Shown here piece after piece: positions 7,526 to 17,738 of a stretch of DNA of 35,804 nucleotides. The translations under genes and the position numbers were made by a program. Every line of letters begins with the position of its first letter. The first letter of the stretch is position 1. The notes beneath the pieces were generated by a model. It was not told the DNA's origin and searched no databases. It worked only from the letters and a program-made list of their open reading frames with translations. Source of the DNA: Bryobacteraceae bacterium CoA2 C42 (GTDB lineage: Bacteria; Acidobacteriota; Terriglobia; Bryobacterales; Bryobacteraceae); contig JAINDL010000154.1 in NCBI GenBank assembly GCA_019931245.1, positions 1-35,804 of the forward strand, read 5' to 3'.

Positions 7526-7936
7526 ATGGCTTTATCGTACTGCGCCGCCGTCCGCCTAGGCATGGACGCCCGGAACACCCGCTACCACGAGACCGAATAC
7601 GGCTTCCCGCTCGCCACCGCCGACGAGCACTTCGAACGCCCGATCCTCGAAATGAACCGGGCCGGCCTGTCCTGGCTCACCAGCCTCAAAGAGCGCGACG
7701 GCTTCCGCCGCGCCTACCGCCACATCCGCATCGACCCCGTCGCCGCCTACGGCGGTGCCGACTGCGCCGCTGGACCCGCCTCTTCAAACAGCCGGCGGCG
7801 AGATCGTCAACGAGTTCCTCACGAGCGCACAGGCCACAGCGAGTCCGTTGTGCCCGTTTTCCCCCCAAAAGCACCGGCTGTCTGCCCGGCGCCCACTACC
7901 CGGACTGCCCGGCCCATTACCAAATCACCGATTTAA
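7526..7936 (+). pseudogene. tag: Decayed DNA-3-methyladenine glycosylase I (tag)
   Basis: The first 75 codons are a good Tag N-terminus: YCAAVRLGMDARNTRYHETE, GFPLATADEHFE and RAGLSWLTSLKERDGFRRAY match the family's 'YHDxEWGxP' and 'GLSWxTxLxKR' blocks. After GADCA (about 7770) the frame degenerates. In another frame come WTRLFKQ (7772-7792) and, after a further shift, GGEIVNEFLTS (7794-7826) and finally PGAHYPDCPAHYQI (7889-7930), all pieces of the Tag C-terminal half. The middle of a 200-residue enzyme is missing and the rest is frameshifted. A good Shine-Dalgarno (AAGGAG at 7514-7519) is still present. The decay overlaps the end of the EamA gene. Confidence 0.75.
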
Positions 7937-8823: not shown

Positions 8824-9402
8824 ATGCAGTTTCGAAGTGTTGGTATCGGCGTAGCAGCGGCGTGGATGGCGCTCTTGGTGGCCACGGAGGCCGCCCGTTG
8901 GGCAGTCCATCCCATCGAACAGCAGTTGGCGCTGTCGCGCGCGCTCCTCCTGTTGTTCGCCACGGCCATGTTCTTCACCGGCGCCGGCGACTACGGCCTG
9001 CGCGCGCCAGGGCGCCTGCCGTGGATCTGGATGGTGCCGGTGAGCCTGCTGCTCGGCGCCAGCGTCGGGGTGGCCGGGGCCATCCCGGGACCATGGTGGC
9101 TCTGGGTCTTTATCGGCTTTGCCGACGAGGTCTTCGTCCGCGGCTGGCTGCAGGCGGCGCTGGCGCCCGTCCGGCAGAAGCTTGGCGCGTGGAGCCTCCC
9201 CGTGCTGGCGAGCGGCCTGTTCGCCGGGTCCATGTACCTGACGCTGATGAAGCAGCGAGCCCCGGGGCCGGCCATCCTGGCGCTCGTCGTCGGTTCGACG
9301 GCACTGGGGTTGGCCGCCGCCAGGCTGCGGGAGCAGTCCGGTAGCCTGGCGGGGCCGGTGGCGATGCACGCCCTGTTCGGGCTGGGCGTAGCGCTCGCTT
9401 AG
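8824..9402 (+). CDS. CPBP-family membrane protein with altered protease motifs
   Basis: A 192-residue polytopic membrane protein related to CPBP/type II CAAX prenyl-protease-like proteins. The first motif reads D101-E-V-F-V-R106 (family EExxxR). The second, LFAGSMYL, has F133 but Met137 where the family has His. The third, H182ALFG, keeps His but has Gly where Asn or Asp is usual. Two of the three motifs are therefore changed at catalytic positions, so proteolysis may be lost. Several hydrophobic segments fit the fold. It diverges from EamA and converges on the next gene with a 4-bp overlap. The family assignment is good; activity is doubtful. Confidence 0.7.
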   Translation: MQFRSVGIGVAAAWMALLVATEAARWAVHPIEQQLALSRALLLLFATAMFFTGAGDYGLRAPGRLPWIWMVPVSLLLGASVGVAGAIPGPWWLWVFIGFADEVFVRGWLQAALAPVRQKLGAWSLPVLASGLFAGSMYLTLMKQRAPGPAILALVVGSTALGLAAARLREQSGSLAGPVAMHALFGLGVALA

Positions 9403-10622
9403 CTGACCACGTAGTCCCAGCCAAAGCCGGGACGCTCGGGCGGACGCATGTAAATGCCTTCCGGTCCGCGGCTGATGTTGTAGGTCTCCTCGAACATCTG
9501 GTAGACCTCCTTCGGGCCGCCCGGCGCCGGCAGGAAGAGTTCGGACCACGGGGCGTTGATCTGCGAGAGCGTGAAGTGCGCGGCGCCGTTGAGCCCGCCG
9601 CCGTGCGGAATCACGGGGATGTCATGGGCCGCGGCCATCGCGCCAATGCGCCGCAGTTCGGTCAGGCCGCCGCACCAGTTGATATCGGGCTGCCAGATCG
9701 CGGCTCCGTTGTGCTCAAGCAGGTAGCGGAAGCCGTAGCGGCCGTACTCGTGCTCGCCCGTGGCGATGCGCGTCGATTTGATCTGCGCGTTCAGGCGGCC
9801 GAAGCCGGCGTAGTCGTGCGGCTGCAGCACCTCTTCCATCCAGTAAACGCGCTGGGACGCCATCATTTCGGCCATCTCAATCGTGTAGCGCTCGGTCCAG
9901 GCCATCCAGCAGTCGAGCATGATCTCGCCGTCCGGGCCCAGCGCTTTGCGGGCGCGTTCGACCAGCGCGAGGTTCGCCTTCATGCCGGCGCGGCCGTCAG
10001 CCGGCCCGTGGGGAATGGCAAGCTTGAGCTTGGTGTAGCCGAACTCGACGTGCTGCTCAATGTCGTTGCCGGTGCAGTAGGTGGGAATGCGGTCCTTGGC
10101 CTCGCCGCCGAGAAGCTTATAGACCGGCACGTTCAGCGCTTTGCCGACGATGTCCCACAGCGCGTTATCGACGCCGCTGATGGCGTTCATCGTCACGCCC
10201 ATGCGGCCGTAGTTCATGGTGGACCGCCAGCAGATATCCCAGTTCCGCTCGATGTCGAACGGGTCCCGGCCCAGGAGAAGCTTGGCGAGGTGATCAACGA
10301 CCACCGGTCCGCCGCCGGGTCCGCCGTTGCCGTAGCCGGTGATGCCCTTGTCGGTGGTGATCTCGACGGTAAAGCTCGGCACCTTGCCCGGGTTGGGGAA
10401 GAACAGCTCGCGACGGGCTTTGAATTCGGGGTAGATCGACATGGGGTTGGCGACCTCCACGTATTGGGTGCTCCAGGCGCCGGCGGCGGGTGTGTAGGCG
10501 GGAGGCTGCTTCCGCGGCTTCACATTCACAAGGCGGATGCCCGTAATCTTCAGCTTCGATTTCTCCTGGGCCCAGCTGAGCGCGGGCAGGGTGATGAGAG
10601 AGAGTAGGTCTCGGCGTCGCAT
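9399..10622 (-). CDS. Exported enolase-superfamily dehydratase, L-rhamnonate dehydratase-like
   Basis: A mandelate racemase/muconate lactonising-type enzyme of 407 residues. Family landmarks: GYTKLKLAIPHGPADGRAGM, with the KxK and the GPxDG insertion typical of L-rhamnonate dehydratase. The metal ligands are in MLDCWMAW, VYWMEEVLQP and ATGEHEYGRYG; the late PDINWCGGLTELRRIG and VIPHGGG supply the catalytic His. It begins MRRRDLLSLITLPALSWAQE, a twin-arginine-like signal, so it probably acts outside the cytoplasm, which is unusual for this family. The ATG at 10622 places that signal at the N-terminus. It lies 37 bp downstream of phnX on the same strand; a link to phosphonate use is not evident. 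The exact substrate is uncertain. Confidence 0.85.
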   Translation of the reverse strand: MRRRDLLSLITLPALSWAQEKSKLKITGIRLVNVKPRKQPPAYTPAAGAWSTQYVEVANPMSIYPEFKARRELFFPNPGKVPSFTVEITTDKGITGYGNGGPGGGPVVVDHLAKLLLGRDPFDIERNWDICWRSTMNYGRMGVTMNAISGVDNALWDIVGKALNVPVYKLLGGEAKDRIPTYCTGNDIEQHVEFGYTKLKLAIPHGPADGRAGMKANLALVERARKALGPDGEIMLDCWMAWTERYTIEMAEMMASQRVYWMEEVLQPHDYAGFGRLNAQIKSTRIATGEHEYGRYGFRYLLEHNGAAIWQPDINWCGGLTELRRIGAMAAAHDIPVIPHGGGLNGAAHFTLSQINAPWSELFLPAPGGPKEVYQMFEETYNISRGPEGIYMRPPERPGFGWDYVVS

Positions 10623-10659
10623 AGGTGGTGTGGAAGTGGACGCTACGACTCTACACAAT

Positions 10660-11466
10660 TCAGCGCGATTCCTCAATGCGGAGGGCGATGTCGTCGAGCA
10701 GCGGCAGGCAATCGCCGAGCCGTTCGGCCAGATAGTCGGGCCGGCCGCGCCGCAGCGTCTGTTCGGCTTCGAGCGTGCGCGCCGCCCGTTCGCCGTAGGA
10801 GAGCGCCGCGAACTCGGCCGCGGTGAGGCCCACCTCGTTCCCGCAACTCGTCAGGCCAATCGTCCACAGGCCCCCGTTGCGGCCTTCGGCGATATCGCTC
10901 GGCGTATCGCCAATCTTCACGCAGTGCGCCAGCGGATAGACATCGAGCAGCGCGGCATTGCGAAACACCATCCACGGGGCGGGCCGCCCGCCGCCGACCT
11001 CGTCGGGGGTAACGCTGGCATCCGGCGTGTAGCCTTCGCGGGCGGCGCGGCGCATGACGACATCGAGCATCTCGCGGGTGTAGCCGGTCGTCGAGCCGAT
11101 GCCAATCCCGCGGCGCCGGCACTCGGCAATGAACTCGACGACGCCTTCGATTACGCCCGAGTGGTGTTCGAGAATGTTCAACTGCCGCGGAATGAAGCTT
11201 TCAAACAGCGCCTGCACATCACTTTCGGCCGGCGGCTTGCCGTGGCGGCTCGCCCAGGCTTCGGCGACGCGGGGCAGGGAACAGATAGCGCGAATCTGGT
11301 CTTTTTTGAGCAGGCCCATCTGATGGCGCGCTTCGCGCCGTTCAAGCGGTACGCCGCGCAGCGCAAAGATCTCCTGCAGCACCACCACGGGCGCCAGGCA
11401 GCCGTGGTCTACGGTGGTGCCGGCCCAGTCGAGAATGACGGCGCAAATCGGGTAGCTGGTCTTCAT
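10660..11466 (-). CDS. phnX: Phosphonoacetaldehyde hydrolase (phosphonatase)
   Basis: Hydrolyses phosphonoacetaldehyde to acetaldehyde and phosphate, breaking a C-P bond; HAD superfamily, cytoplasmic. The N-terminal DWAGTTVDHG carries the nucleophile D13, with Ala rather than Asp two residues later as in PhnX. MGLLKKDQIRAI supplies the Schiff-base Lys (K54). GRPAPWMVFRNA and VKIGDTPSDIAEGRNGGLWT are the family's C-terminal HAD motifs. The length of 268 residues is typical. The start at 11466 is chosen because the longer upstream frame is Arg/Gly-rich and lacks homology. No PhnW transaminase is seen; the neighbouring FAD oxidoreductase may supply the aldehyde. The 277 bp separating it from that gene contain no convincing gene. 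Confidence 0.92.
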   Translation of the reverse strand: MKTSYPICAVILDWAGTTVDHGCLAPVVVLQEIFALRGVPLERREARHQMGLLKKDQIRAICSLPRVAEAWASRHGKPPAESDVQALFESFIPRQLNILEHHSGVIEGVVEFIAECRRRGIGIGSTTGYTREMLDVVMRRAAREGYTPDASVTPDEVGGGRPAPWMVFRNAALLDVYPLAHCVKIGDTPSDIAEGRNGGLWTIGLTSCGNEVGLTAAEFAALSYGERAARTLEAEQTLRRGRPDYLAERLGDCLPLLDDIALRIEESR

Positions 11467-11743
11467 CGAGTCTCCGAACGCCTCCGCCCGGCGGGGCCGG
11501 GAATCATGGCCTGCGATAAGGGTGCCCGGCGGGTCACGCCCCCGTCCCCCCCTCCCGGCGCACGGCCGCCGTAGCGTTGACCCGGACACCTCACCCGGGC
11601 CCGGCTAGGAACCACGGTCCACCGCGCGGCCCCGCCCCGCATCAGGCCATCCAACGCGCCCCCACGCCGTCGGCCGCGGCGCTGAAGCCGTTCCGGACGC
11701 CCGGCGCAATCACCCATCACCGACCGAGTCCGACCGGTCCGCC

Positions 11744-12871
11744 TCATCGGGCCAGCGTCTCCGCCGCCAGACCAAACGACAGCGTCATGCCGCTGCCGCC
11801 CGGCGCCGTGATCACCTCCACGCCGGGGGCCGGCGTAAAGCGACAGTAGGGCTGGTCCGGATGCTTGGCGTAGACGCCGTGCCAGCGCTGCGTGATGGTC
11901 TGGTCCGGGAAGCGGGCAAAGGTGGCCAGATAGCGCAGGACAAGATCGTCGAGTTCGGCCTTATCGAAGATATCGACGGCGAGGCCGTATTCGTGGGTGT
12001 CGCCAAGGGTGATCTCCCCGGCGGCGGTCTGCGAAACCAGCACGTGGATGCCCCACCGGTCGTACTCGGGTGTTTCGGCGGCGATGCGCGCCTTCAGCCG
12101 CGGCAGTGACGGGCACAGGCCGAAGGAACTGTAAAAGCGCAGCGTCAGGCCGGCGGCCAGCGACGGGCCCAGCTGCCATTGGTTGGGCTGCGCGGCGGTG
12201 CGCAGCATCTGCAGCTTGCAGCGCGTAATGCCGCTCGCGGCAAACAGGGCGGGGTAGAGCGTTTGGAAGTCGTCGCCGCCGCAGACGTAGACCGTCTCCA
12301 CCTCCCAGGTCTCTTCGCCTGCCCGCACGCGCGGCAGCTCGATGCTGGTGACCGCGGTGTTGTAGCGGAGCGTGACGCCGCACTGTTCTTCGAGAAAGCC
12401 GGGCAACGTGGCGATGGTCACCCGCGGATCGACGACGACCTCGGTGGGCGACCACAGGCCGCCGAGCAGCCCCTCCTGCACCACGGCCGGGCTGCGGGCG
12501 AGCACCTGCTCCGGGTTAAGCCAGGTGACCGCAAAGCCCTGCGCCGGGGCGAGCGCCGCGAACTCCTGCGCCACGGTGGCTTCGTCCTCGCGGTAGACGA
12601 CGTGCAGCGAGCCGGTGGGGTAGTGCGGCAGCCGGGCGGCGGCGATGACATCGAGCCAGTGCGCCCGGCTGGTCATGGCCATCTGGTGCATCCGGCCGGC
12701 GGGTTGGCCCATGGGCCACAGCATGCCGAAGTTGCGGATGGAAGCGCCCATGGCGCGCGGCGAGCGCTCAAACAGCACGACGCGACGGCCCGCCTTGGCC
12801 GCCTGATACGCATGGGCCAGGCCCAGAATGCCGCCGCCTACTACGGCAACGTCGGCGCGGGTTTGAGACAT
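11744..12871 (-). CDS. FAD-dependent oxidoreductase of the phosphonate-associated TIGR03364 type
   Basis: A DAAO-fold flavoenzyme of 375 residues. The FAD site DVAVVGGGILGLAHAYQAAK lies near the N-terminus (about 7-26), followed by GASIRNFGMLWPMGQ, CKLQMLRTAAQP and, at the C-terminus, RWHGVYAKHP and GGSGMTLSFGLA. These match the TIGR03364 family, which recurs next to phosphonatase genes. The likely reaction is oxidative deamination or dealkylation of 2-aminoethylphosphonate or an N-substituted form, giving phosphonoacetaldehyde for PhnX through an imine. The start at 12871 lies inside the transporter gene (31-bp overlap), so the two are translationally coupled. Family assignment is strong; the exact substrate is inferred from neighbours. 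Confidence 0.85.
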   Translation of the reverse strand: MSQTRADVAVVGGGILGLAHAYQAAKAGRRVVLFERSPRAMGASIRNFGMLWPMGQPAGRMHQMAMTSRAHWLDVIAAARLPHYPTGSLHVVYREDEATVAQEFAALAPAQGFAVTWLNPEQVLARSPAVVQEGLLGGLWSPTEVVVDPRVTIATLPGFLEEQCGVTLRYNTAVTSIELPRVRAGEETWEVETVYVCGGDDFQTLYPALFAASGITRCKLQMLRTAAQPNQWQLGPSLAAGLTLRFYSSFGLCPSLPRLKARIAAETPEYDRWGIHVLVSQTAAGEITLGDTHEYGLAVDIFDKAELDDLVLRYLATFARFPDQTITQRWHGVYAKHPDQPYCRFTPAPGVEVITAPGGSGMTLSFGLAAETLAR

Positions 12872-14106
12872 AATGCGGGATCTTCCTCCGGAACGCGATA
12901 GCTCCATTTCACCGTAAGCAGCAGCCCGCCCGCCACCGAAAGAACAAAAAACAGGCCAAACAGCGCATCCCACCCAAAGCGCTGCACCACGCCCGCCACG
13001 AGAAAGGGCGACAGAAACTGGCCGGTGGAGCCGGTGCCGTTGACAAAGCCCGCCGCCGTGGCCGCCGTCTCCCGCGTCGAAGAGTCCTGCACGGCCGCGC
13101 CGCCCAGCAGCGTGTCGGGGCCCAGGTTGAGCAGGCCGATCAAGGCGATGGCCGGCACGATGATCCAAGTACCCGTCAGGCCGGCCATCGTGGGCAGCAG
13201 ACAGGCGCAGCCCAGGCCCATCATCGCCAGCGCGCCTACCGGAAAGCGGCGCGCCTGAAACAACTTATCCGAGACGTAGCCGCTCAGCACCACCCCGGCG
13301 AACCCGCCCAACTCGAAAACCGAAGAGCTGTAGCCGGCCTCGGCCGGGCTGAAGCCGAGCCGCTCGGTGAGATAGACCGGTAGCCAGAATAGAAACGCAT
13401 AGCGCGTCATCTTCAGGCAGAAGTAGGCCCCGGCGATCACGCGGATGTTGCTGCTGCGGGCCACCTGAAGAAACTTGGCCAGGCTCTGCCGGGACTCGGC
13501 TCGGGTCTCGAGCGCCACCGGACCGTTGCGCACGAGCACCGCAAAGCCCACGGCCAGCAGCATCAGCAGCGCCCCGGGCAGCCACGCCCCGCGCTGCCAA
13601 CTGGGGAAAAACAGCAGGGAACTCGTGGCGGCGAACGTACCGAAGGTGGTGGCAAGAAACGCCCCGAGCGCATAGTTCGTGCACCACCAGCCCATCACCA
13701 CCCCGCGGTTGCGCGCCTCAAACCACGCCGACATGATCTTCAGCAGGCCGGACCAGCCGCAGGCCTGCGCCATGCCGTTGATCGCCTGCAGGGCGATGAT
13801 CGATGGTGTATCCGTGTGAAACGCCATGGCCACGCTCGAAGCCCCGGCCACCAGCATGCCGGCCGTCACCACGCGCCGGGGGCCGAAGCGGTCAGAGAGC
13901 GTTCCCATGACAAACTGGCTCAGCGAGTACATCAGACTGTAGCCGAAGATCGCGGTGGCGAGTTGGTCTTTCGTAATGCCGGTATGCTGCTGCAGCAGCG
14001 GCATCAGCACGCTGAAGTTCTTGCGGCAGAGATAGAAGCCGGCGTAGGCCACCCAGGTGACGGCAAAGATGCGGACGCGCCAGGACTGGATTGACCCGTT
14101 TGTCAT
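12841..14106 (-). CDS. MFS transporter, organophosphate:phosphate antiporter (OPA) type
   Basis: A 421-residue, twelve-helix major facilitator. YAGFYLCRKNFSVLMPLLQ near residue 20, the loop motif GTLSDRFGPRR (about 68-78), and GMAQACGWSGLLKIMSAWFE (about 115-134) match GlpT/UhpT-type carriers, which move phosphorylated compounds. Coupled by overlap to the phosphonate-type flavoenzyme, it is the best candidate for phosphonate uptake here, in place of the usual PhnCDE ABC importer. The ATG at 14106 was chosen over the adjacent TTG at 14109. Its start is only 40 bp from the divergent phosphodiesterase gene, so the promoter must be very compact or lie within that gene. Confidence 0.88.
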   Translation of the reverse strand: MTNGSIQSWRVRIFAVTWVAYAGFYLCRKNFSVLMPLLQQHTGITKDQLATAIFGYSLMYSLSQFVMGTLSDRFGPRRVVTAGMLVAGASSVAMAFHTDTPSIIALQAINGMAQACGWSGLLKIMSAWFEARNRGVVMGWWCTNYALGAFLATTFGTFAATSSLLFFPSWQRGAWLPGALLMLLAVGFAVLVRNGPVALETRAESRQSLAKFLQVARSSNIRVIAGAYFCLKMTRYAFLFWLPVYLTERLGFSPAEAGYSSSVFELGGFAGVVLSGYVSDKLFQARRFPVGALAMMGLGCACLLPTMAGLTGTWIIVPAIALIGLLNLGPDTLLGGAAVQDSSTRETAATAAGFVNGTGSTGQFLSPFLVAGVVQRFGWDALFGLFFVLSVAGGLLLTVKWSYRVPEEDPALCLKPAPTLP

Positions 14107-14146
14107 CAAATTTCGACTCTAACGCCCCCACATTTCGAGATGATGA

Positions 14147-15004
14147 ATGGGCATGAAGAATCTGCTGCTCCTCCTCTGCCTGGCCGCCGCAGCCGGCGCC
14201 GCGCCGAAACACGTGGTGATCATCGGCGTCGACGGCCTCAGCGCCGAAGTGCTGCGCGAAGCCGCCGCGCCCAACCTCAAACAGCTGATGACGCGCGGCG
14301 CGTGGACCCTCCACGCCCGCGGAGTGCTGCCCACGGTGTCGAGCCCCAACTGGATGTCCATCCTCGCCGGCGCCGGGCCGGAGCAGCACGGCGTCGATTC
14401 GAACGAATGGGAGCGGTTCCAGCACGCGATTGAGCCCATCTGCGCGGGGCCGGAGAAGATCTTCCCCACGTTGTTCAGCCAGTGGAAGGCGCAGCGCCCC
14501 GCGGCGCACCTGGCCGTCATTCACGATTGGCCGGGCTTCGGCCGGCTCGTCGAAAAAGGCTCCACCGCCGCAACGCGGCACGTCAAAGGTTCGCCGGCGG
14601 CGATGGCGGCGGCGATCGCTTATTGGCAGCAGCACAAGCCCGACCTGCTCTTCGTCCATCTCGACGACGTCGACCACGCCGGCCACGACAAGGGTTGGGA
14701 GTCGGCGGACTACCGGCGGGAGGTCGCCATCGTCGACGGTCTCATCGGGGAGATGCTCGCCGTGCTGCCGGCCGCGCAGACGCTGGTGGTGATTGTGGCC
14801 GACCACGGCGGCACCGGGACCAAACACGGCAACCCGGCCATGCGCGAACTGGAGGTGCCGTGGATCGTGGCCGGGCCGGGCGTGGCGCGGGGCCGGGAGT
14901 TGACCGGCCCGGTCTATTCGCTCGATACGGCGCCCACCGTGCTCGCGCTTCTGGGGCTACGGCCTCACCCCTGTTGGACGGGGCGCGCCGTGCCCGTCAA
15001 GTGA
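14147..15004 (+). CDS. Exported alkaline-phosphatase-superfamily phosphodiesterase/phosphohydrolase
   Basis: A 285-residue protein with a signal peptide (MGMKNLLLLLCLAAAAGAAP). The metal-binding residues of the type I phosphodiesterase/NPP family are visible: IIGVDGL (first Asp), PTVSSPNWMSILAGAGPEQHG (Thr nucleophile), VHLDDVDHAGHDKGW (Asp/His pair) and VADHGGTGTKHG (Asp-His). It should hydrolyse phosphate mono- or diesters, or possibly phosphonate esters, in the periplasm. It is shorter than classic NPPs. It starts divergently from the MFS gene, and its 3' end overlaps the PhnZ-like gene by 40 bp on the opposite strand. Its position inside the phosphonate cluster suggests extracellular release of phosphonates or phosphate; this is an inference. 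Confidence 0.8.
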   Translation: MGMKNLLLLLCLAAAAGAAPKHVVIIGVDGLSAEVLREAAAPNLKQLMTRGAWTLHARGVLPTVSSPNWMSILAGAGPEQHGVDSNEWERFQHAIEPICAGPEKIFPTLFSQWKAQRPAAHLAVIHDWPGFGRLVEKGSTAATRHVKGSPAAMAAAIAYWQQHKPDLLFVHLDDVDHAGHDKGWESADYRREVAIVDGLIGEMLAVLPAAQTLVVIVADHGGTGTKHGNPAMRELEVPWIVAGPGVARGRELTGPVYSLDTAPTVLALLGLRPHPCWTGRAVPVK

Positions 15005-15546
15005 CGGACAATCATGTCGCGGTAGGCGGCAATCGGGGTGACCGCCCGCCCCGGCTCCTTGGCCAGTTCGTCCCATTGGCGCAGACGCAGGCAGTCCTTC
15101 AGCTCCGGCGCCGCGCCGAAAGCCGCGGCCTCTTCCGGCGCCATCGGGCCGCCCTGGTGCTTCAGGGTTTCCGTGCTGGCGGGCGAGAGGCGCTTGGCGT
15201 AGTTGGCGTTGGTCGTCACCAGATACCGCTTGGCATCGACGTGGCCGCGGACCAGGGTGCGGAGCCGGGGCGAAAAGCCCCGTTCGGCGAGCCACTCCGC
15301 GCCCAGGTCGTCGTGGTTGATCACGCCGACCTCGCCGTGGCGAATCGCCCGCTCATCGCTGATGTTATGGCCGATGTCATGAAGCAGGGCGGCCAGGATC
15401 AGCTCCTCGTCCGCGTTGGCATCGCGCGCCGACTGGGCCGCCTGCAGCGCGTGCGCCAACTGCGATACGGCTTCGCCGTAGTAGTCGGCGTCGGCGGAAG
15501 CGGCCAGCAGGCTAATGATCTCGTCCGCGGTCTGTTCCGGCGTCAT
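14965..15546 (-). CDS. PhnZ-like HD-domain mixed-valent diiron oxygenase
   Basis: A 193-residue HD-domain protein of the phosphonate-operon HDIG family (TIGR03276/PhnZ). Known PhnZ cleaves the C-P bond of (R)-1-hydroxy-2-aminoethylphosphonate with O2, giving glycine and phosphate. All six PhnZ iron ligands are present with a constant offset of two residues: H32, H56, D57, H78, H102 and D159. The gating and substrate residues Y22, E25 and K106 are also present (in DADYYGEAVSQLAH, LLHDIGH, NHDDLGA, GHVDAKRYL, RQWDELAK). Substrate specificity inside the family varies, since trimethylated aminoethylphosphonate enzymes are related. No PhnY-type hydroxylase is seen nearby. It follows RidA by 4 bp. 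Confidence 0.88.
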   Translation of the reverse strand: MTPEQTADEIISLLAASADADYYGEAVSQLAHALQAAQSARDANADEELILAALLHDIGHNISDERAIRHGEVGVINHDDLGAEWLAERGFSPRLRTLVRGHVDAKRYLVTTNANYAKRLSPASTETLKHQGGPMAPEEAAAFGAAPELKDCLRLRQWDELAKEPGRAVTPIAAYRDMIVRHLTGTARPVQQG

Positions 15547-15550
15547 CGGT

Positions 15551-15937
15551 TCAGGCCAGCGGCTTGTACGCCACGCAGTCGATTTCGACGTGCATCGCCG
15601 GGTTGGGCATCACCGCCTGGACGGTGGTGCGGGCCGGCTTGGCGTCGCCGAAAAACTCGCCGTACACCTCGTTCATGGCGCTGAACTCGGCAACGTCCTT
15701 GAGGAACACCGAACACTTCACCACATCCGCCAGCGTGGCGCCGGCGCCGGCGAGGATCTTCTGGATGTTGGTGATGACGATGCGGGTCTCGTGGCGGACA
15801 TCGCCGATCTCGTACTGGCCGGTCTCGGTGTTAAACGGGCCCTGGCCGCTGACGTAGATAAAGTCACCGGCCCGGACCGCGTGGGAGTAGGGCCCGGCGG
15901 GCCGTGGCGCGCCGGGGATGTGAAAACGTTCGATCAT
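15551..15937 (-). CDS. RidA-family enamine/imine deaminase
   Basis: A 128-residue protein of the YjgF/YER057c/UK114 family. Family blocks are PAGPYSHAVRAGDFIYVSGQ near the N-terminus and PARTTVQAVMPNPAMHVEIDCVA at the C-terminus; the Arg of PART is the residue that binds the substrate carboxylate in RidA. It hydrolyses reactive 2-imino or enamine intermediates. Sitting 4 bp upstream of the PhnZ-like gene in a locus that also encodes an amine-oxidising flavoenzyme, it plausibly hydrolyses the imine formed from aminoethylphosphonate. That link is an inference. The RBS GGAGAG precedes the ATG, and the gene begins 12 bp after the NYN gene. Confidence 0.9.
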   Translation of the reverse strand: MIERFHIPGAPRPAGPYSHAVRAGDFIYVSGQGPFNTETGQYEIGDVRHETRIVITNIQKILAGAGATLADVVKCSVFLKDVAEFSAMNEVYGEFFGDAKPARTTVQAVMPNPAMHVEIDCVAYKPLA

Positions 15938-15949
15938 GAGACTCTCCGA

Positions 15950-17329
15950 TTACTCCACCGGTTTGCGGGCGCGCGGGCGGCGCACGCTGGAGGTGGCGGT
16001 CTTTTTGGCGGCGGTGGCGCCGGTCCGTTTCCGTGAGGTTCCGGCGCCGCGGCGGCCACCGGCGGGTTTGGCCTCCGCCGCGGGAGCGGCCTCTTCGGTC
16101 GCCGCAGCGTCGGCGGCCGGCTCTTCGGCCTCGGCGAGGCTAGCAGCGGTCGCGGCCCCGTTGGTGACTTCGGGCACGGGCTCCGGTTCGGGAGCCGGCG
16201 GGGCAAGCTCGGCGCCGAGGAAAACGGTCATCCCGCGCTGCTCATCCGGTTCCATGCGGACCATGAAGTTGTCCTGCGCGAAGTTCAGGAACTCATTGAA
16301 CTCCTGAAAGCCGTACTTCTTCGTGTCAAAGTCGGTGTGGATCTTGCTCATCCAGCCCGCCACCGTTTCGGCGCTCGCGCCGTCTTCCATGTCGAGCTTG
16401 TAGATGTCGAGCACCTGGCGGAGCAGCGGCAGGGCGTCGTCCTTCTTGTGGATCACGGCCCCGGTCGCGGCGGCGCCGCCCGAGAGCAGCTCGATCGTAT
16501 ACCGGCCCTCGGTGCCGTGCAGCTGGATGTAGCCGGCGCCTTTAATGCGGTCGATAAACTCGGAAAAGGCGCTGGCGCCGTAGGAGCGCTCGTTGAAGCT
16601 GGGGTCGAGCTGCTTCATCGTGCTCTTGAGCAGGCCCAGCTGCGGCTGCACACCTCGCCGTTGCAGCACGCTGAGAGCGCGTTCGACGAGCGGCATGGCC
16701 TGAGCTACTTCGAGCGGCTGAGGCCGGCCGCGCCGGTAACCGCCGCCTTGCTGCTGCGGCGGCTGCGCGGCGGGGGCGGGCGCTTCGGCCGCCGCGGCGC
16801 GCGCGGCCTGCTCTCTCTGGGGCGGCGGGGCGTACTTCCGCTCCGGGATCACCCGCACATCGTCCGTCAGCAGGCTCTCGTAGCTGATGAACTCGTGGCA
16901 GTTCTGCTGCAGAATGTTCGAGGTGAACGCCTTGCCGCCGACGATGTAGATCGTTTTGCCGTATGCCTTCAGCTTGTTGACGAGCGGGATAAAGTCGCTG
17001 TCGCCGCTGATGATGGCAAAAGCATTGACGTTGCGGTGGGTGAAGGCCATCTCGAGCGCATCGAGGGCGAGGTTGATATCCGCGCCGTTCTTGTCCCCGC
17101 GCGGCGAAGGTAGGCGCTGGACCATCTGCACGGCGTTTTCCGCCATCTGCCGGACCGCCGGCTCCTGCCGGCTCCAGTTGGCATAGGCAAATTTGGCGAC
17201 GATATCGCCGCGCTCCTTGAGCGCATCGAGGGGGAGCGACACGTCGAATTCGCGGCGCAACGTCGACTTCACGCCGATTTCGATGTTGTCATAATCCACG
17301 AATACGGCGATATTTTGGCGTTCTTGCAT
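15950..17329 (-). CDS. NYN-domain nuclease-like protein with two OST-HTH/LOTUS domains
   Basis: A 459-residue protein. Residues 5-155 form a NYN (LabA/DUF88, PIN-like) domain with the acidic motifs VFVDYDNIEIG, NGADINLALDAL and IISGDSDFIPLV that bind metal in this nuclease fold. Residues 212-282 and 298-372 are two OST-HTH/LOTUS domains, RNA-binding winged helices: VERALSVLQRRGVQPQLG to GRYTIEL, and LRQVLDIYKL to TVFLG. The last 85 residues are a disordered Ala/Glu then Lys/Arg-rich tail that could bind nucleic acid. The likely role is RNA turnover or regulation in the cytoplasm. The ATG at 17329 starts right at the NYN domain; the longer frame upstream is low-complexity. It heads the operon with ridA and the PhnZ-like gene. 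Confidence 0.88.
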   Translation of the reverse strand: MQERQNIAVFVDYDNIEIGVKSTLRREFDVSLPLDALKERGDIVAKFAYANWSRQEPAVRQMAENAVQMVQRLPSPRGDKNGADINLALDALEMAFTHRNVNAFAIISGDSDFIPLVNKLKAYGKTIYIVGGKAFTSNILQQNCHEFISYESLLTDDVRVIPERKYAPPPQREQAARAAAAEAPAPAAQPPQQQGGGYRRGRPQPLEVAQAMPLVERALSVLQRRGVQPQLGLLKSTMKQLDPSFNERSYGASAFSEFIDRIKGAGYIQLHGTEGRYTIELLSGGAAATGAVIHKKDDALPLLRQVLDIYKLDMEDGASAETVAGWMSKIHTDFDTKKYGFQEFNEFLNFAQDNFMVRMEPDEQRGMTVFLGAELAPPAPEPEPVPEVTNGAATAASLAEAEEPAADAAATEEAAPAAEAKPAGGRRGAGTSRKRTGATAAKKTATSSVRRPRARKPVE

Positions 17330-17738
17330 GTAGTTCTTAATCCTTGGAGCGGTGCGGGGCGCCAGCCTCTGGCCAGCTCCCAAGGCGCCGCCGTTGGGTT
17401 GCTTGTTCCTGTTGGCAGCTTCCGCGGGGGGCAGCGCCTCCACGTTTTCCGCTTTCTTGCTGTCCGGGGCCGGCAGATTCGTCCCTGGTTTCTCGCCGCC
17501 GGCTACCGCCGGCTTCAGGGTACACCAAGGCTGTTCTGGATTTCATCCGGCCGGGCCGCTAGTGAGAAGTATATCGCTTGTTAGGGGGTGCGCGAGACAG
17601 GGGGGCGGGAAACCCCCTGTCTCGCGGAAACTAAGGTCCCACCGCGGGCTGGTACCGGTAGTACAAACCGCCGAGTTTGCCATTCAGTTCTTCTCCTTAC
17701 AGTGAAATAAGGTTCGACGTCGTCTCCTGGAGTTCTTT
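17330..17738. other. 409-bp divergent intergenic region with a strong hairpin
   Basis: No convincing gene is seen between the NYN and GT2 start codons. It holds upstream signals of both genes: a possible RBS AAGGA about 12 nt before the NYN ATG, and GGAG 5 nt before the GT2 ATG. It also holds the long inverted repeat at 17591-17626. Confidence 0.6.
17591..17626. other. Perfect 14-bp stem-loop in a divergent intergenic region
   Basis: CGCGAGACAGGGGG (17591-17604) pairs perfectly with CCCCCTGTCTCGCG (17613-17626) around the 8-nt loop GCGGGAAA. It is too stable to be accidental. It has no T tract and lies between divergent genes, where terminators are not expected. It may be an interspersed hairpin repeat, a structured leader element for the GT2 gene, or a processing site. 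Confidence 0.75.

Follow-up and report, generated by a model that had tools for sequence, protein, structure and literature searches.

Introduction

How can a bacterium draw phosphate from 2-aminoethylphosphonate (AEP) without PhnW, and why should a second C-P cleaving enzyme be encoded beside the first? This question is raised by a gene cluster of Bryobacteraceae bacterium CoA2 C42 (Acidobacteriota). The stretch of DNA analysed here, referred to as the window, is contig JAINDL010000154.1 (35,804 nucleotides), which belongs to a genome of 6.07 Mb that is 97.7% complete. Between positions 10660 and 15937 we found all of the genes that an initial annotation, made from the letters alone, had claimed: those for the phosphonoacetaldehyde hydrolase PhnX, a flavin adenine dinucleotide (FAD)-dependent oxidoreductase of family TIGR03364, a major facilitator superfamily (MFS) carrier of the organophosphate:phosphate antiporter (OPA) kind, a PhnZ-like HD-domain diiron oxygenase and RidA. 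We consider it likely that the locus serves phosphate scavenging from AEP-type phosphonates, with the flavoenzyme and PhnX acting on AEP and the PhnZ-like branch acting on R-1-hydroxy-2-aminoethylphosphonate (R-HAEP). The genes and their families are read directly from the DNA, and the pathway roles are inferred from them.

In the proposed pathway, aminophosphonates would be imported by the OPA-like MFS carrier. The PbfD2-like flavoenzyme would then use O2 to convert AEP and/or N-methyl-AEP (M1AEP) into phosphonoacetaldehyde and ammonia or methylamine, replacing PhnW, and PhnX would split phosphonoacetaldehyde into acetaldehyde and phosphate. In a separate branch, environmental R-HAEP would be converted to glycine and phosphate by the PhnZ-like diiron oxygenase, which is predicted to take the role that PbfA plays in other hydrolytic clusters; since it would fill this role on environmental R-HAEP, no PhnY* hydroxylase would be needed. 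A phosphodiesterase of the nucleotide pyrophosphatase/phosphodiesterase (NPP) type, probably exported, may free aminophosphonates from esters, and RidA, seen here as an older neighbour, may help to hydrolyse imines without being specific to the pathway.

A putative flavoenzyme route to phosphonoacetaldehyde

The profile scores of PhnX, the flavoenzyme and RidA exceed the curated cut-offs. PhnX aligns with the solved phosphonoacetaldehyde hydrolase 2iof at 242 bits, including the DWAGTT and MGLLK stretches, which we take to be those of the catalytic Asp and Lys. The initial annotation had proposed to look for phnW and pbfA in the rest of the genome, and neither was found above cut-off genome-wide (best PhnW score 126.7 vs 400.8; best PbfA score 199.7 vs 525). 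Of the two best PhnW matches, one has its top score with an aspartate-glyoxylate aminotransferase model, and the other is interrupted by a stop. PhnJ and PhnD gave no match in the genome, in which PhnC, PhnE, PhnA and phosphonoacetaldehyde (PAA) dehydrogenase were not searched for. The flavoenzyme is the single protein of the genome above the TIGR03364 cut-off.

A route of this kind has been described (papers are cited here for particular passages): PbfC and PbfD are proven, and PbfB is strongly supported, as enzymes that convert N-methyl-AEP to phosphonoacetaldehyde, PbfD2 uses AEP efficiently as well, and the pbfD genes outside PbfD1 mostly accompany phnX alone, phnX-pbfD2 without phnW being a published arrangement (PMC10590968). 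A scan with the window flavoenzyme led us to fetch 56 loci carrying a relative of it, hereafter FAD loci. PhnX is encoded in 41 of these, and the PhnW query matched in none of them (E 1e-5, no positive control). A quick tree of 59 rows places the window enzyme among those of Acidobacteria and Planctomycetes. Apart from it stand two enzymes of Acinetobacter, one of them encoded beside phnW and phnX, and the Comamonas and Novosphingobium enzymes, which are located with phnX, also fall outside its group; the tree carries a long-branch warning for the Acinetobacter-Hymenobacter group, its rows exclude any characterised PbfD2, and the assignment of the Acinetobacter enzymes to PbfD1 is our own. From this grouping only, the window protein is predicted to be a PbfD2-like AEP/N-methyl-AEP oxidase. 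The earlier claim that oxidation of the amine, not PhnW, would yield phosphonoacetaldehyde agrees with the published PbfD2-PhnX route (PMC10590968) and also with the acidobacterial and planctomycete grouping apart from the two Acinetobacter enzymes.

Some FAD loci hold further genes. A group of them, mostly planctomycete (L037, L038, L040, L042, L044-L047, L050, L055-L057), carry an alcohol dehydrogenase resembling that of L042, which alone was scanned and scores 399.7 bits on TIGR03366 (cut-off 328.1); many of these loci also encode a membrane protein that by eye resembles a transporter. On a Gloeocapsa plasmid (L218, 5198-7113), a TIGR03364 gene whose product is 52% identical to the window enzyme adjoins genes for a HAD hydrolase, PhnF, an AEP-type ABC transporter and a C-P-lyase-pathway protein. 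Four relatives (L013 11877-12410, L014 11874-12410, L015 10491-11027, L214 5866-6396) have a gene of the isochorismatase family in slight overlap with the end of phnX; no such gene was found in the window.

The PhnZ-like oxygenase and its distribution

The HD-domain protein shares 83 of 175 aligned residues with PhnZ (4mlm) and 62 of 150 with TmpB (6npa). All 12 of the PhnZ ligand and substrate positions checked are present in it (Y24, E27, H34, H58, D59, H62, H80, H104, K108, S126, R158 and D161), in accordance with the complete set of catalytic ligands claimed for it earlier; the roles of H62, K108, S126 and R158 are presumed here. Over the 20 columns of the PhnZ alignment that were printed, positions 30 and 131 differ. 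The same 12 positions are kept in 30 of the 31 FAD loci that have an HD gene, and in the 31st (L020) the gene is split between two frames. The ligand set of PhnZ and its YxxE loop have been described (PMC8177086). On TIGR03276, a 176-residue fragment of authentic PhnZ reaches a score of 190, likewise under the cut-off of 214.6. An identity as TmpB or as hydroxymethylphosphonate (HMP) oxygenase was rejected, the scores being 133.8 and 118.3 against cut-offs of 300.

In a tree of 57 HD proteins, the window protein lies in a 31-row clade together with PhnZ (support 96/91), and TmpB lies outside. Planctomycete HD proteins and six acidobacterial rows form a separate group (94/84), and the HD protein of L017, a locus whose flavoenzyme is 62% identical to that of the window, pairs with TmpB. 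Because of these two placements, HD genes have probably been recruited into such clusters more than once.

The HD gene and the flavoenzyme gene tend to occur together. Among 257 genomes of the order, 48 have HD (E 0.001; three of them, G005, G053 and G231, by weak matches only) and 52 have the flavoenzyme (E 1e-40), and 39 have both where 9.7 would be expected; counted by genus, 13 of 84 genera have both, 18 having HD and 17 the flavoenzyme, in tests that ignore relatedness. According to coordinates compared by hand, the two lie on one contig within ~6 kb in 24 of the 39 genomes and on different contigs in 15. In the FAD loci, HD is present in 31 of 56, at most 4.6 kb from the flavoenzyme gene, and 29 of these also have PhnX. 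PbfA was found in three of the 56 loci and never together with HD (0/56), which agrees with the report that PhnZ homologues never occur with PbfA among 19,425 genomes (PMC8154272). In that study PhnZ homologues were found in 15 of 1,186 phnWX and 24 of 75 phnWAY clusters and were tied to the processing of R-HAEP. The initial annotation had seen no evident source of substrate for the PhnZ-like enzyme; this published reading of PhnZ homologues in phnWX and phnWAY clusters offers one, and it suits the window too, where R-HAEP from the environment would feed a branch of its own. In three genomes (G047, G049, G087), HD stands near a PhnX-like gene (179-213 bits) with no flavoenzyme gene beside it.

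In the host genome, the window protein is the single PhnZ-like HD protein of TIGR03276 type. No linked 2-oxoglutarate hydroxylase (PhnY*) was found among the locus genes scanned, and the genome has one PhyH-family protein.

Comparison with known phosphonate systems

In its core the locus belongs to a cluster type that is already published, here represented by an acidobacterium. It is like the pbfD2-phnX cluster of the Mariniblastus fucicola type in having a PbfD-kind flavoenzyme and PhnX without PhnW, and differs from it by the addition of the PhnZ-like gene, the OPA-type MFS carrier, the NPP gene and RidA (PMC10590968). Neither RidA nor an HD domain turned up in a term search of that paper, where PhnZ features only as the unrelated oxidative pathway. 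The genes hpnW (TIGR03364), phnX and phnHD (TIGR03276) occur together in two Achromobacter strains, where the roles of HpnW and PhnHD were called a conundrum (PMC11203657). The three enzyme families are the same and PhnW lies outside that cluster too; however, the Achromobacter genes are accompanied by phnSTU transport genes and a LysR gene instead of the OPA-type MFS carrier, NPP and RidA, and those strains keep phnW elsewhere in the chromosome, whereas the window genome has no PhnW above cut-off. On a Comamonas endophytica plasmid, genes for an HD oxygenase, a TIGR03364 flavoenzyme and PhnX are adjacent, with no phnW annotated in 11 kb, but the transporter genes are of the EamA type and the flavoenzyme falls outside the tree group of the window enzyme.

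With the PhnY*-PhnZ oxidative pathway the locus shares an HD oxygenase that has the PhnZ positions and is nearest to PhnZ; unlike that pathway, it has no linked PhnY*, and the partner of the oxygenase is the predicted hydrolytic PbfD-PhnX route. The phnWX and phnWAY clusters with phnZ resemble it in that a PhnZ homologue is part of a hydrolytic cluster and PbfA is never present alongside, whereas PhnW is replaced by a flavoenzyme in the window (PMC8154272). The combination had been thought unusual. This view is not supported, since the combination is published for the two Achromobacter strains (PMC11203657), is annotated on the Comamonas plasmid, and PhnX and HD are both present in 29 of the 56 FAD loci, in none of which the PhnW query matched.

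The present analysis brings the Acidobacteriota within the range of the published flavoenzyme route and of the pairing of that route with a PhnZ-like oxygenase. Its additions, for which we make no claim of being unpublished, are a genus comparison that separates HD from RidA, a recurrent NPP neighbour and a natural RidA-HD open frame.

RidA and the genus comparison

RidA is encoded 4 bases upstream of the HD gene. Its best PDB chain is 2dyy (120.7 bits), with the PAR arginine aligned; TIGR00004, the model that it exceeds, describes the Rid family and not RidA alone, and the genome contains 15 Rid-family matches. In the closest relative (L009, 6906-7883, +), RidA and the PhnZ-like HD domain form one uninterrupted open frame of 326 amino acids, seen in one metagenome-assembled genome and possibly an assembly error.

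The genus comparison covers 19 genomes, nine with the cluster at the site and ten in which MFS-FAD-PhnX was not seen there. RidA is present in 9/9 of the former, with dN/dS of 0.00-0.07 against seven relatives, and the HD gene of these nine genomes, which have the flavoenzyme and PhnX at the site, is whole in eight and frame-split in one; in G094, PhnX itself has an in-frame stop. Six of the ten genus mates without MFS-FAD-PhnX at the site have RidA near NPP (G085, G086, G087, G096, G098, G100), three do not have it at the site (G088, G089, G090) and in G099 the contig is cut. The site is only partly visible in G085, a genome 62% complete whose contig stops shortly after NPP. No flavoenzyme match at E 1e-40 was obtained in four of the six (G085, G086, G087, G098), and G096 and G100 carry the flavoenzyme elsewhere. 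In the clade without phosphonate genes at the site, the dN/dS of RidA is 0.02-0.10, with dS often above 1. Among the FAD loci, RidA was found in 8 of 56, apparently the same eight genus mates. PhnJ is carried by two of the 19 genus genomes, one of which (G095) also has the cluster.

HD fared differently at the site, where the domain is decayed or absent in the six genus mates that keep RidA. The RidA of these mates adjoins an isochorismatase-family gene, and in G087, G096 and G100 this gene is fused to an HD remnant that has lost H34, H58, H80, H104 and D161. At the site, HD with its ligands is thus found only where the flavoenzyme and PhnX are, and RidA is independent of them. It is best regarded as a neighbour of older standing, probably without a specific tie to the pathway. 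Its use as a pathway marker was rejected, as it stays where phosphonate genes are not seen and occurs in few FAD loci. Its proposed part as imine hydrolase of the pathway is weakened by its constrained presence in six of the ten genus mates without MFS-FAD-PhnX at the site. Redundancy may explain part of the HD loss, as G087, G096, G099 and G100 have a second HD match elsewhere. The genus comparison in this way separates two companions, RidA being kept where phosphonate genes are not seen and the oxygenase domain not, and makes the PhnHD conundrum (PMC11203657) testable with R-HAEP, with the caveat of the second HD match in four of the compared genomes.

The isochorismatase-HD remnant fusions (L195 4987-5982, L196 5000-5995, L198 4812-5807) have pairwise dN/dS of 0.06-0.32, and the ligand-less remnant is possibly a non-catalytic HD domain with a new role. 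The isochorismatase gene was rejected as a pathway member, since it also stands nearby in genus mates that do not have the cluster at the site.

NPP phosphodiesterase and MFS carrier

The NPP gene sits between the HD and MFS genes on the opposite strand and overlaps the end of HD. Its product has an N-terminal hydrophobic, signal-like stretch (by eye), and its best PDB chain is 2gsn, a phosphodiesterase-nucleotide pyrophosphatase (58 bits). According to coordinates compared by hand, NPP lies within ~1.3 kb of the flavoenzyme gene in 17 of the 52 FAD-positive genomes of the order, from four genera: nine genomes of the window's genus and G047, G049, G053, G056, G058, G152, G153 and G154 of three others. 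It is a more repeatable partner than RidA. A strictly pathway-specific NPP was rejected, as the gene is present in 19/19 genus genomes and 39 of the 68 NPP genomes have no flavoenzyme match at E 1e-40; therefore its function need not be phosphonate-specific, and mainly its position beside the flavoenzyme suggests a link. PhnA is structurally NPP-like (PMC10574752), and an identity as PhnA-type phosphonoacetate hydrolase was rejected (TIGR02335, 35 of 407.55 bits). We regard the NPP protein as a candidate for freeing aminophosphonates from esters; the available passages of PMC10574752 contain nothing on an NPP releasing AEP. In a Rhodothermales locus (L032, 893-13801), an NPP-like domain (469 bits, in an 838-aa frame), PbfA, PhnA, a TIGR03364 enzyme and an OPA-type MFS carrier are encoded together, along with a PAA-dehydrogenase-like protein of 633.9 bits, just under the cut-off of 635.65.

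The best NCBIfam match of the MFS carrier is the PgtP subfamily TIGR00881, under its cut-off of 407.75, and the GlpT score is under its cut-off as well. A similar MFS gene adjoins the flavoenzyme gene in other genera.

Alternative interpretations

Several observations weigh against phosphate scavenging from AEP and R-HAEP by the two branches. The TIGR03276 score of the oxygenase is 11 bits under the cut-off. The 12 positions checked are common to PhnZ and TmpB, and therefore sequence does not fix its substrate. In the HD tree PhnZ has a long branch, and the HD proteins of relatives are not all PhnZ-like, given L017 with TmpB and the six acidobacterial rows with the planctomycete ones. In the order survey 13 of the 52 genomes with the flavoenzyme have no HD and 9 of the 48 with HD have no flavoenzyme, in incomplete assemblies and by tests blind to relatedness. 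The decay of HD at the genus site is a weak natural experiment, because G096, G099 and G100 carry the flavoenzyme and HD elsewhere and G087 has HD with a PhnX-like gene elsewhere. Moreover, the one PhyH-family protein of the genome could be a hydroxylase. If it were of PhnY* type, the oxygenase might work in series with it, which would give a complete oxidative pathway for AEP in addition to the hydrolytic one; that protein (G000:C104:2981-3526) is, however, encoded on another contig and matches no NCBIfam model at E 1e-10, and no PhyH match was found in ten frames (two of them without any Pfam match) beside unlinked HD genes in eight loci, which makes such a series very unlikely in our judgement. 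That the oxygenase acts on some other 1-hydroxyphosphonate, for instance N-methylated HAEP or hydroxymethylphosphonate, we hold to be unlikely: known HD relatives such as TmpB and GmPhnZ do vary in substrate (PMC10574752), but the window protein is far under the TmpB and HMP-oxygenase cut-offs, and among the two solved relatives PhnZ is the nearer. For the flavoenzyme, glyphosate-like glycine derivatives, suggested for Achromobacter HpnW by in silico docking only (PMC11203657), are hardly credible substrates, as assayed PbfC and PbfD did not oxidise sarcosine and used M1AEP, PbfD using AEP too (PMC10590968). R-HAEP for the oxygenase, and AEP or N-methyl-AEP for the flavoenzyme, are the substrates that we favour.

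RidA could also be a dedicated part of the pathway, hydrolysing the imine formed by the flavoenzyme or some reactive product in the surroundings of the HD enzyme. It keeps the arginine described as essential, RidA genes cluster with those of FAD-dependent amine oxidases, and the imines that an amino acid oxidase produces are hydrolysed by RidA (PMC4433059); the short distance to HD, the single frame in L009, the presence in all nine cluster-bearing genus genomes and the strong constraint point the same way. Nevertheless, we give this idea a low probability, since RidA is kept under constraint at the site by genus mates showing no MFS-FAD-PhnX there, four of the six lacking a flavoenzyme match, is found in few FAD loci and is one of many Rid-family matches in the genome, and imines of PbfD type are described as hydrolysing spontaneously (PMC10590968). 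A literature search for the Rid family with AEP and imine found no report. The membrane polysaccharide of a soil amoeba is reported to contain both AEP and R-HAEP. A wider scheme, which we think quite unlikely, would make the locus a set for feeding on ester-bound aminophosphonates: the exported NPP would free AEP and R-HAEP from phosphonolipids or phosphonoglycans, the OPA carrier would swap them for phosphate and each would have its own C-P cleaving enzyme. Within that scheme RidA would be in the course of joining the oxidative branch, with its fusion to the PhnZ-like domain in one relative as the sign of this. In the scavenging pathway that we prefer, RidA is an older neighbour.

Layout of the locus and neighbouring genes

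The coordinates of the genes are collected in Table 1, in which the start codon of the flavoenzyme gene (~12871) was inferred from the reading frame. The initial annotation had placed the locus at 9399-15937; its claimed genes are there, but it overlooked the NPP gene, and the gene at 9399-10622 encodes an enolase-superfamily protein outside the pathway core.

Table 1. Genes of the phosphonate locus and its flank, positions in the window
Product	Position	Strand	Profile evidence
Enolase-superfamily protein (rhamnonate-dehydratase-like)	9399..10622	-	PRK15440 277.8 bits, below cut-off 393
PhnX, phosphonoacetaldehyde hydrolase	10660..11466	-	TIGR01422 312.5 bits, cut-off 220
TIGR03364 FAD-dependent oxidoreductase, PbfD2-like; predicted AEP / N-methyl-AEP oxidase	11744..~12871	-	TIGR03364 414.8 bits, cut-off 285.1
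MFS carrier of OPA kind; predicted importer	12841..14109	-	TIGR00881 207.1 bits, GlpT 161.9
NPP-type phosphodiesterase	14147..15004	+	PF01663 113 bits, threshold 23
PhnZ-like HD-domain diiron oxygenase; predicted R-HAEP oxygenase	14965..15546	-	TIGR03276 203.5 bits, below cut-off 214.6
RidA (Rid family imine deaminase)	15551..15937	-	TIGR00004 119.7 bits, cut-off 106.25

The enolase-superfamily protein has a twin-arginine-like N-terminus (by eye). Its gene was rejected as a pathway member, since the same neighbour is present in genus mates without phosphonate genes at the site. What the window encodes at 7526-7936 (+) is just the N-terminal portion of a methyladenine glycosylase (PF03352 positions 6-77 of 177), which looks truncated or broken. 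Upstream of RidA, at 15950-17443 (-), lies a gene with a conserved MQERQNIAVFVDYDNIEIG stretch, and a gene bearing this stretch stands near RidA in all 15 genus genomes (15/15) that have RidA at the site.

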